Shown: one piece after another, positions 19,434-26,059 of the stretch | Numbering within the stretch: position 1 is the stretch's first letter | How the letters are laid out: every line of letters begins with the position of its first letter | Assembly: GCF_022201045.2 (NCBI RefSeq) | Contig: NC_068563.1 | Span: 29,733,001-29,797,000, forward strand | DNA from: Citrus sinensis | Lineage: Eukaryota; Streptophyta; Magnoliopsida; Sapindales; Rutaceae | Reading direction: 5' to 3' | Length of the DNA: 64,000 nt | Made by a program: the position numbers and the translations under genes | The notes under the pieces: model-generated | Told to the model about the DNA's origin: nothing | Databases searched by the model: none | What the model saw: only the letters and a program-made list of their open reading frames with translations

Positions 19434-22249
<2,816 letters not shown>

Positions 22250-22320
22250 GAGAAGCAGATGAAAGCTCCTGGAGCCCATATGGATGATTGGCTTGTCAAA
22301 ATCAGTTATATGCAGTCTTT

Positions 22321-22337
22321 ACTTTCAGCCTTTAGGT
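22321..22337 (+). promoter_or_regulatory. Regulated 5' splice site of the THIC 3'UTR intron
   Basis: The sequence ACTTTCAGCC (22321-22330) is followed by TTTAG and the donor GTGAGT (from 22336). ACTTTC/AGCC is the reverse complement of GGCTGAGAAAGT in the downstream aptamer (22565-22576), apart from two unpaired aptamer bases. This fits the known mechanism in which the ligand-free P4/P5 strand masks the 5' splice site and TPP releases it. Confidence 0.75.
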
Positions 22338-22430
22338 GAGTACTTATCAGTGCTTCCCCCCACCCCTTCTCTTTTCGGAGGGGTCAATAAGTTTAAAGAC
22401 TTTGTTCTTCTTCTTTCAGTGAGCCTCATG

Positions 22431-22437
22431 TAATAAA
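22431..22437 (+). terminator. Possible poly(A) signal inside the regulated THIC intron
   Basis: GTAATAAAATG lies between the 5' splice site and the aptamer. In the known mechanism, retaining the intron keeps a processing site that gives the short, stable mRNA. This AATAAA is a candidate signal for it. Confidence 0.45.
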
Positions 22438-22503
22438 ATGTTTCTCCTAGATATTCTATCGAAGACACTTTCTTTTCTTTTGCTTTTTATTAACATGAGA
22501 AAT

Positions 22504-22619
22504 GCACCAGGGGTGCCTGTATCTGCTTTAACACTAGCCAATTGGCCAGGATGTGGGCAGAGCAGGCTGAGAAAGTCCCTTTGAACCTGAACAGGTTAAT
22601 GCCTGCGTAGGGAGTGTGC
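22504..22619 (+). ncRNA. TPP riboswitch aptamer in the THIC 3'UTR
   Basis: A complete eukaryotic TPP (THI-box) aptamer. P1 strands are GCACC (22504) and GTGTGC (22614-22619). The conserved 5' core is CCAGGGGTGCC. A P3 arm contains the palindrome GCCAATTGGC. The pyrimidine-binding loop CTGAGA is at 22567-22572, and the pyrophosphate-binding segment CCCTTTGAACCTGAACAGG is followed by TTAATGCCTGCGTAGGGAG. It lies inside the 3'UTR intron, between the donor at 22336 and the likely acceptor at 22645. Known role: when TPP is high, splicing of this intron makes a longer, unstable 3'UTR and lowers THIC expression. Confidence 0.97.
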
Positions 22620-22627
22620 TTTTTCCT

Positions 22628-22645
22628 TTTTTTGTGGTTGAACAG
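22628..22645 (+). promoter_or_regulatory. 3' splice site of the riboswitch-controlled THIC intron
   Basis: A T-rich tract (22621-22633) followed by GTGGTTGAACAG and GG directly downstream of the aptamer is the best acceptor for the donor at 22336. The intron would be 22336-22645 and would remove the whole aptamer. Confidence 0.6.
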
Positions 22646-24036
22646 GGAAGGAGCTCCCATTTATGGTTTTGGGCTAGCTGATCCATGTGGGCAGATTCAG
22701 CTTCTTGTCCAGCCTCCTGGCTTATCAGTCCAATGGCTGATTCCACTGAAACTAACAAATTGCAAATCAGCCACCGATTAAACAGAACTTTGTTCAGTCT
22801 TTCTTCCTTCTGTAGAGTCATAATACACGGGACGTAAAGTATACCTAGAATAAAAATAAATAAACAGATGATTAGAAAGTAGTGTGTAATTCTTAGCCAA
22901 AATGGTTTTTTAAAGGAAATGGAACATCTTCCCATGTTTTTTAAGAAGAAAAGGAAACTCTTCTGGCACTGTGCTAGTGCCTGAATCATCAGCTGTTGCT
23001 GCGGATTAGAGTGATTGATTAATAATGAAATTTGTACACTATTGGTTGGCCATTTTCGTGCTTCACCTGTGATGCATTACTAAGTAACCTGTTTTAGATA
23101 CGGACTACGGTATAGACATTTAGAATTGAAGGATGAAATATATCGATGCTGTTTGACGGATATGTTCAAGCAAGATGGTGTAATAAGGCTAGTCGGTTCC
23201 AAAGGCTATATAACGGAGCAAATCGATGCTGTTTCTGTTAAGTATTTGATATGGATGGCAAACGAGAAAGGGACAGCTTCGTTTGGCCTCTTTTCTTCTC
23301 TACGAAAGAATTAAGTTATTTATATAACCTAGTGTCTTTACTATTTCCAAGGAGCTACAAATTTAAGTCAGTCCCATGAAAGCTACCAATCACAATCACA
23401 GCATCCATCGGACCATGGCATTAAGGCAGTGTAATCACAGCGCAGGTGCACACACCCTACAACTCCCTGCAAACAAGCCGAAACTTCAGGGTCTTTTATT
23501 CAAAGACTTCCCTTTTCCAATTCAGAGTAATCCCTGGTAAACTGACCTGATCAATATGTTTTAACATTTTCTTTGCATAAATTTTCATTAGAAAATACCT
23601 TATTGATGATGCACCATAAAAATAAATCTCAAATTCTACTGCTACAAACATTTTTTTTTCCCTACGCCCTTGTAATCATGATCAAGTCGAGATTTTACAC
23701 GATAAATGCATGACAAATAACCGGAAAAGAAAAAGGGCAGTGAAAGTACTATCTCTTGGAAACTAAACACCCAAGAGTTGCCAATACATATGACAAGGTG
23801 GATGAATACATACATCTGCATATATTTTTAACATAGAGGAGCAAGTTCAAGAATACAAAAAAGATTCACATACTAATATACCAAAAACTAGGCTTGATCG
23901 AGCTACAGCCTGCAACATTACACAATTGTTGGCTTAGGCATTTTAAAGAAAAAAAAAATCTCTATAATCAAGTGTGTCGCAATAAAATGGATCCTAGGTC
24001 AATCAAGGGGAAAACTTGCCACAAGACTCTGAATCA
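22646..24036. other. THIC 3' end region and RPL4 3' flank
   Basis: It contains the extended THIC 3'UTR (AATAAA-rich at about 22850-22862) and the 3'UTR of the minus-strand RPL4 gene. A 62-codon open frame at 23126-23314 has no recognisable similarity and I do not call it. Confidence 0.5.
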
Positions 24037-25279
24037 TTATTCTGCTGCATCACTTTCCTCCCCTGCCTCCCTCGCTGCATCCCAAATTAAAGAACAAAGA
24101 AATATTAAACAACAAAAGAAAAATCTTCAGGAGACTCTTCATGCTCCATAGATCAAATCTATGAAACACCCGCAAAACAATTGAAACACATCAATCTTGC
24201 AGGTCATGGCAACAAATACAGCTACACACTAGCAAATTTATAGTTGAGTCAGCTCCTAAATGCAAACAAATGGGAAACTGGCTGCCTATCCAAAACACTA
24301 ATACTTGTTACATGTAACGCAACATATAAACAATCAAATGCAGCAGCAGCAGCGGCGGCGGCGGCTACTGATAAATGCAGCCAATTTAGCATTCAGCAGC
24401 ACATAACTCAAGCATGTCCTAGTACTTACAAGAAACAATCAAACACTAACCTTCACTCTCTTCTTCTTCTTCATCGCCATCTCCCTCGAACTCGACCCCA
24501 TACCTGCCATTCAGGAAATCAACAGTTGACGGCGTCAACACCAGCGTCTCCGCATCCAAAATATCAAACAAATTCAATGTCCTCGGCGTCAACATCTTCA
24601 AAGTCCCAATATTCCTACTCGATTTCTCCACATTCTCGCTCACCTCCATCACCAAGAACGTCGCTTTCTGCTTCGGGTCCAAACCCCACCTCCTCATCGC
24701 CTCAATAAACTCCTTCGTCTTCGGCCTCTCAAACTTCCCATCAAATTCCTCCACCACAATCGTGTTCTCCGCCGCCGCGGCGCTCGCTATCGCCGTCGAA
24801 ATCGCCAGCCGCTTCTCCTTCTTGTTTATCTTAATCGACCAGTCCCTCGGCTTGGGTCCAAAAACGACGCCTCCTCCGGGCCGAAGTGGGGTCCTGTTCG
24901 ATCCGCGACGAGCCCTACCCGTTTTCTTTTGAGAGTAGGGTTTCCGTCCCCCACCTCTTACCTCCCCGCGCGTGAGAGTCGACGCGGTGCCGCGTCGCTT
25001 GTTCTGCATGTCGGTGATCAACGCCCGGTGGACAACCGCACGCGCTGTGTCGGGTGCGGCGGACTTTAGGTCGAGGTATGTCTCGCCGATTTTTTCGCCT
25101 GTGAAGGACAGTATCGGGAGCGGAGAGGCGAGTTGAGATGAGACAATGAGTGGCTTTGGCGGGAGATTTATTAGGGAATTTGGCTTGGCGAGTTGAATGG
25201 GCTTTGGAACTTTGTTAGAAGATGAAGTGAGGAAGATTGTGGAGGAGAAAAATGAAAGAGATGAAAACGAGGCTGCCAT
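24037..25279 (-). CDS. RPL4: 50S ribosomal protein L4, chloroplastic
   Basis: Structural protein of the plastid large subunit that binds 23S rRNA near the exit tunnel. Coding exons (minus): 24451-25279 and a 38-nt last exon 24037-24074; total 288 aa (Arabidopsis 282). A Ser-rich transit peptide of about 50 residues precedes the mature start around SPLPILSFTGEKIGE. The uL4 signatures are present: the Arg/Gly-rich tunnel loop KRRGTASTLTRGEVRGGGRK, then PYSQKKTGRARRGSNRTPL, GGGVVFGPKPRDW and the C-terminal PRTLNLFDILDAETLVLT. The tail is very acidic (EEEEESEAREAGEESDAAE). The last-exon boundary is supported by frame, GT-AG ends and continuation of the acidic tail. The intron holds a GCC/GCT-type trinucleotide tract (reverse strand) at 24342-24366. 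Confidence 0.97.
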
Positions 25280-26059
25280 TGTTAAGAGAAATTTTTGGTG
25301 AGTGAGCTTTGCTACTACCTACCAGTATCGTTATCCGGATGAGGGTTGCTCAGTCCCCTTAAACGCCGTCGTTCGCACGAAGAGTTGGAGATTAGCAAAG
25401 GATGCGTCTGCACTACATTTGAATTTGTACAACTAAGGGTATAATTGTACTTCTGTCTCGTTAGAATGGTACGCTATCAAAACTTAACGAAAATGTAGAG
25501 AGTTGTAAGTTTATACGGGTTAAGAGTAAAATTAAATTTTATTAGTTGTAAAATTCTTCAATTATTTCTTGATTATTATTTATTAACATGAATTCTCATT
25601 CTTCGCTTAATCGAATGGCGTGAATTATGGGGCGGCAACGACTTTTTAACGAACAATGTCTCAATATACTTCTTGGTTATTCAATTCTACTATTAATACC
25701 TACAGATTTAGGTTTTTTTTCCAAATTTACTTTATAAATTTATTTTCTTTTGAATAGTTGAGCTAAGAATGAGTTGGATTGCTAATGAGGATCATTATTC
25801 TTTAGGATTCACGAGATATAATAATGAGAATTTGAGGGACTAAATCACAATTGAAGTTACATATGGGTATTCAAATGTAATTTCTAAAATTAGGTAACAA
25901 ACGGTACCGTCCTGGTCAAGGAATGCCCCCATACCAAAAATTCAAAGGTCCCACGGATGCCTTTCTTCGAGTAGTTTTAAGTAACATTATCCACATCACC
26001 AATTTCTCTGTTTATCGAAAATCCTTGTAACCCCACGACGCACGAGGCGCACGTTAGCA
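25280..26059. other. Divergent promoter region of RPL4 (-) and C2 gene (+)
   Basis: The 780 bp between two divergently transcribed starts must hold both promoters. AT-rich centre; no further gene seen. Confidence 0.6.

Follow-up and report, generated by a model that had tools for sequence, protein, structure and literature searches.

A TPP riboswitch in the 3'UTR of Arabidopsis THIC was reportedly described by Wachter and by Bocobza in 2007. The plant mechanism, as described in an excerpt of PMC10226581, acts at the 5' splice site, and the published model needs an intronic as well as a downstream poly(A) signal. An excerpt of PMC4775224 places the splice site downstream of the aptamer, which conflicts with PMC10226581 and with the layout of the locus analyzed here. 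In plants and green algae the acceptor AG lies within the AGGG of P2 (excerpt of PMC9544697), and the Arabidopsis type III RNA has lost seven aptamer bases (excerpt of PMC5853225). The latter source also reports THIC-I, II, and III forms for cassava MeTHIC1/2.

The window analyzed in this study (the whole stretch of Citrus sinensis DNA, 64,000 nt) contains a THIC 3' region that resembles Arabidopsis THIC, as described in later papers, in the gene itself, the 3' position, the aptamer class and the intronic processing signal, and also in an acceptor within the aptamer, with seven bases lost. With cassava MeTHIC1/2 (excerpt of PMC5853225) it shares an intron directly before the stop codon, followed by the regulated region with the aptamer. 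Cassava differs in having two THIC copies, whereas one was found here, and in that its retained intron causes a two-residue truncation, while retention here gives a longer frame (to 21903). In Neurospora crassa NMT1 the aptamer pairs with the 5' splice site in the absence of TPP (excerpt of PMC7404189), as it would in the switch favored here, but the fungal element resides in intron 1 and acts through uORF control, in contrast to the 3'UTR position of the present one. The plant THIC TPP splicing switch is thus a known system, and its parts at this locus are ordinary. On the best explanation of the combined evidence, the locus is very probably such a switch; the first-pass annotation had proposed TPP-controlled splicing in the THIC 3' region, and homology and anatomy support this proposal well. 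The features are collected in Table 1.

Table 1. Features of the THIC 3' region, with positions counted from the first base of the window.
Feature	Position	Strand	Basis and remarks
Last long THIC coding exon	21142..21830	+	homology; start is the first matched base, 5' boundary approximate
Intron adjoining the stop codon, CAAG/GTCAAT ... CTTGCAG/GACC	21831..22236	+	read from sequence, predicted
Alternative donor AAG/GTAAAA of this intron	21868	+	read from sequence
Stop codon TGA	22247..22249	+	predicted from reading frame, with donor 21831
Alternative stop codon	22285-22287	+	predicted from reading frame, with donor 21868
Donor-side arm used by the bulged duplex or the unbulged variant (-15 to -5)	22321..22331	+	
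Donor-side strand of the competing P4 pairing	22332..22337	+	UUAGGU with ACCUGA 22585-22590, over AG/GU
Local 9-bp donor hairpin	22335..22357	+	predicted; 22335-22336/22356-22357 and 22338-22344/22349-22355
Regulated 5' splice site GTGAGT	22336..22341	+	sequence; regulated role putative
Hairpin of AATAAA arm with polypyrimidine/branch-site arm	22425..22499	+	predicted, -14.5 kcal/mol
AATAAA, candidate intronic 3' processing signal	22432..22437	+	sequence
Candidate branch site TTAAC	22490..22494	+	read from sequence; 17-18 nt before the acceptor
TPP riboswitch aptamer	22499..22631	+	RF00059, 71.5 bits, E 4.4e-12
P1-P5 core of the aptamer	22504-22619	+	
Expected regulated acceptor AG inside the aptamer	22509..22510	+	sequence and published plant anatomy
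GGCTGAGAAAGT	22565..22576	+	P3 3' strand, J3-2 (ligand-binding) and P2-proximal bases; Rfam structure line
Acceptor AG of the first-pass annotation	22644..22645	+	pyrimidine-rich stretch before; would remove the whole aptamer
Three adjacent/overlapping AATAAA (22849, 22855, 22859)	22849..22864	+	candidate end of the long 3'UTR

The THIC exon is single copy in a protein search of the 299.7-Mb genome (11 contigs), and so is the THIC 3' region in a DNA search of the same genome. The open frame at the THIC end spans 21121-21903, the last part being read with the next intron retained. It contains a PF01964 domain match and, from residue 8 on, matches the chloroplast phosphomethylpyrimidine synthase structures 4n7q (E 1.4e-146) and 4s25 (E 2.2e-146). 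The stop-adjacent intron is placed like intron 4 of cassava (excerpt of PMC5853225). When it is retained (21831-21903), THIC reads on through 23 additional codons to a C-terminal AQK, and the two possible donors of this intron would produce different THIC C-termini. This intron also contains a perfect tandem repeat of two 33-nt copies (22047-22111). On the minus strand, convergent with THIC, an uninterrupted ribosomal protein L4 frame (PF00573) with an acidic tail occupies 24446-25318.

Downstream of the THIC coding region, the exact stop codon of which is predicted, the RF00059 match exceeds the curated threshold of 54.3 bits over the full length of the model (positions 1-105), and it is the sole match in the genome search, where scoring covered 49 of 6221 first-look candidates. 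Nearly all tested helix positions can pair (P1, 4/5; outer P2, 4/4; P3, 5/5; P4, 4/4; P5, 4/4), the innermost tested position of P2 being an unpaired U-U. P4 is formed by 22586-22589 with 22608-22611 and P5 by 22592-22595 with 22602-22605, and the CTGAGA motif is present. Judged by its sequence, the TPP aptamer in the THIC 3' region is real, with TPP binding as a prediction. A decayed remnant that no longer switches has a precedent of sorts in a predicted diatom THIC aptamer that gave no thiamine response (excerpt of PMC9544697), but it is extremely improbable here given the score of 71.5 bits, the presence of CTGAGA and the splice and poly(A) sequences that are all in place. The strand GGCTGAGAAAGT had been labeled P4/P5. 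According to the Rfam structure line, it consists of the P3 3' strand, J3-2 and the start of P2; since P2 and P3 form the pyrimidine-ring arm and P4 and P5 the pyrophosphate arm (excerpt of PMC6414600), it does not belong to P4/P5.

The expected acceptor reads CACCAG/GGGTGC, with its AG within the AGGG of P2 and its use predicted. As P1 starts at 22504, splicing at this AG would remove 22504-22510, i.e., seven aptamer bases, and the expected intron is 22336-22510 (175 nt). The sequence itself thus shows an aptamer lying after THIC, a donor, an acceptor AG exactly where one is expected and an AATAAA within the intron, and AATAAA occurs at both of the sites, intronic and downstream, that the published model needs. 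The first-pass annotation considered all parts of the switch to be placed, yet omitted this AATAAA at 22432. It also chose an acceptor at 22645, which is preceded by a pyrimidine-rich stretch but would remove the entire aptamer. This is not the published arrangement, in which the plant acceptor lies inside the aptamer, here at 22509-22510; acceptor 22645 is probably wrong and was set aside.

In the switch that we favor, site use, ligand response, transcript forms and stability are carried over from homologous systems. At low TPP, the region of donor 22336 would pair with the aptamer and the intron would be kept, so that cleavage and polyadenylation after the intronic AATAAA at 22432 would yield a short, stable THIC mRNA. 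At high TPP, the aptamer would fold around its ligand and free the donor, and 22336-22510 would be spliced out. Splicing would take away the AATAAA together with the first seven aptamer bases and give a long, unstable message ending further down, perhaps near 22849-22864.

Which part of the aptamer would mask the donor is a separate matter. The first-pass annotation assigned this role to ACTTTCAGCC at 22321-22330, upstream of GTGAGT (from 22336), pairing with GGCTGAGAAAGT at 22565-22576. The letters are as it gave them and the pairing, with a two-base bulge, does exist in the sequence. An unbulged variant (22323-22331 with 22564-22572; 9 bp, one of them G-U; -13.8 kcal/mol) is the best duplex that the 20 nt before the donor form with the aptamer. 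We compared these 20 nt with random 20-nt stretches of the window (n = 1490) and with shuffles (n = 200). Against the P3/J3-2 strand alone, equal or better pairing was found in 6 of the 1490 random stretches and 16 of the 200 shuffles, but against the whole aptamer 386 and 78, respectively, do equally well. When each random stretch could choose its best 14-nt target, 27 of 695 equaled the arm of the bulged duplex, a count uncorrected for the choice of donor-side position. Among the 68 GTRAGT sites on both strands of the window, donor 22336 ranks first against P3/J3-2, first against P4/P5 and seventh against the whole aptamer over -15 to +6; widening the span to -25 to +10 moves these ranks to 2, 1, and 15. 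The pairing with P3/J3-2 is therefore modestly better than chance. A segment within the intron (22459-22478), however, pairs with 22563-22585 more strongly (-14.8 kcal/mol) than the donor side does.

The most stable duplexes of the donor region involve the other arm, joining 22312-22337 with 22585-22617 (P4, P5, L5, and P1) at -20.0 kcal/mol, or -20.6 kcal/mol when extended, and their core UUAGGU:ACCUGA covers AG/GU. In Arabidopsis, P4/P5 is the element named as partner of the donor. A register with 22532-22570 is near in strength (-19.2 kcal/mol), and the donor can also pair with the acceptor region (22328-22339 with 22504-22515, -12.3 kcal/mol). Random stretches show that the P4/P5 register does not stand out: for the target 22583-22618, 133 of 1490 random stretches and 49 of 200 shuffles were as good over -15 to +6, and 65 and 26, respectively, over -25 to +10. 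Forcing it costs 1.7-5.1 kcal/mol for the 6-bp core, 2.3-7.5 for 9 bp and 5.3-8.8 for the full 19 bp. In these models folding lends the pairing of donor and P4 no better support than the duplex with P3/J3-2. In Arabidopsis nuclear RNA, higher reactivity (less pairing) at positions -1 and -2 of the 5' splice site accompanies splicing (excerpt of PMC7784297). These two bases are covered by the P4 register and lie outside the bulged duplex (-15 to -6). Taken together, the donor region is complementary to the aptamer in a way that is suggestive but singles out no register. The donor would most likely be masked by P4/P5 over AG/GU, perhaps also by P3/J3-2, and the base pairing originally proposed is possible but unproven.

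Folding was computed for four regions (22237-22645, 22237-22700, 22300-22650, and 22311-22631), with and without forced structures, using models without pseudoknots, tertiary contacts, proteins, or TPP. G22335, G22336, and 22338-22341 are paired in all four regions whether the aptamer is forced or free, mostly through the local hairpin, while A22334 and U22337 are mostly unpaired in both states. Opening 22334-22341 takes 8.1-8.5 kcal/mol with the aptamer free and 8.7-9.1 kcal/mol with P1-P5 forced. Folding with and without the aptamer constraint, the check suggested in the first-pass annotation, thus leaves the donor paired either way and, at the level of secondary structure, does not reproduce the switch. 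The costs of forcing are 3.0-5.6 kcal/mol for the bulged duplex, 1.4-4.1 for the unbulged variant and 4.9-5.7 for the aptamer. For bases 22321-22330, with ten pairs possible, unforced ensembles (37 C) give an expected 1.81 pairs to P3/J3-2 and 2.55 to P4/P5/L5 when region 22237-22700 is folded; the corresponding values are 0.78 and 0.61 for 22300-22650 and 0.03 and 0.02 for 22237-22631. Both registers are thus predicted to form in a minority of the ensemble, with an outcome that depends on the RNA ends chosen. A hairpin of C-rich and G-rich arms (ACCCCTTC/GGAGGGGT) follows the donor hairpin directly (22362-22384).

These values bear on the original version of the circuit, in which 22321-22330 masks the donor by pairing with P3/J3-2 and acceptor 22645 removes the whole aptamer. 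The complementarity and its donor ranks, the 1.81 of ten bases paired in the longest region and the low cost of the unbulged variant speak for it. But the duplex leaves the splice junction unpaired, and with the duplex forced the donor opening cost is 7.9 kcal/mol in all four regions, hardly below the unforced cost; together with the matches of random stretches, the better-pairing intron segment and the acceptor published inside the aptamer, this makes it very unlikely. Its argument that ligand binding and masking exclude each other is sound in principle, because the duplex would compete with the aptamer for P3/J3-2, but the predicted ensembles contain this duplex only in part, and both the masking of the donor and an exclusion at base resolution are conjectural.

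The local hairpin invites another reading, namely that it mainly governs the donor and that the aptamer works on the branch site or the acceptor. In a transcript growing from 22237, the hairpin pair G22340-C22353 has a probability of at least 0.95 at all 23 ends from 22360 to 22690, while the two donor-aptamer pairs that were followed reach at most 0.11. P2 includes the acceptor AG, and the arm with the branch site can pair with L5/P5 (-5.5 kcal/mol). With 60-nt flanks, the opening cost of donor 22336 is the fifth among the 68 donor-like sites, which marks a strong hairpin but not an exceptional one, and the described plant mechanism acts at the 5' splice site (excerpt of PMC10226581). We consider this reading unlikely. 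As it represents the same circuit with another contact point, its odds overlap with those of the preferred explanation and the two are not meant to sum to one.

The whole intron folds more stably than its shuffles (z -2.44; 3 of 200 as stable), and so does the stem 22425-22499 (z -2.88; 3 of 200), although it was picked after looking. By opening cost, the AATAAA at 22432 is the fifth of 208 AATAAA in the window. In the growing transcript the stem is nearly gone at 3' ends 22585, 22600, and 22615 (0.01-0.03) and weak at 22675 (0.24), but has a probability of 0.8 or above at all other ends from 22510 on, so it is not robustly predicted. Splicing in Arabidopsis is associated with lower pairing at the branch site, and AAUAAA signals show a tendency to be single-stranded (excerpt of PMC7784297). 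A second layer of control could be imagined in which the hairpins 22335-22357 and 22425-22499 conceal the signals for splicing and for 3' processing at the same time, leaving the aptamer to shift the balance between them instead of just masking the donor, but on these models it is distinctly unlikely. If true, the concealment of an AATAAA and a branch site by a single stem would add an interesting further level of regulation; no description of such a stem was found among the titles and abstract openings listed by a literature search. We also observed that the branch-site region 22489-22497 is complementary to the P5/L5 strand 22592-22600 (89% of nine bases).

Co-variation of the two strands among orthologues had been suggested as a further check of the duplex with P3/J3-2. 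At least 118 prokaryotic stretches contain the 23-mer CTGAGAAAGTCCCTTTGAACCTG exactly, all with bacterial titles; nine viral stretches with the 23-mer were left out, and the bacterial loci serve as a control only. All of the 118 loci read hold the 23-mer and 38 of them the full GGCTGAGAAAGT before it. Fourteen of the 118 were scanned with Rfam, and RF00059 covers the site at gathering score in eight and gives no such hit in six. Bacteria are not known to have spliceosomal introns; ligand binding alone can therefore keep this strand. With the aptamer strand fixed by ligand binding, two-sided covariation is not to be expected, which makes the suggested test a weak one, and what orthologues could reveal is mostly whether the donor-side strand is conserved. 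As a lesson of method, complementarity to an aptamer is ill-suited to two-sided covariation; the decision has to come from probing, mutation or the conservation of the free strand.

For the THIC switch of this plant, the analysis provides corrected coordinates for testing. The plant is indicated to have the standard feedback switch of vitamin B1, in which the vitamin would curb its own synthesis via splicing of the THIC tail.
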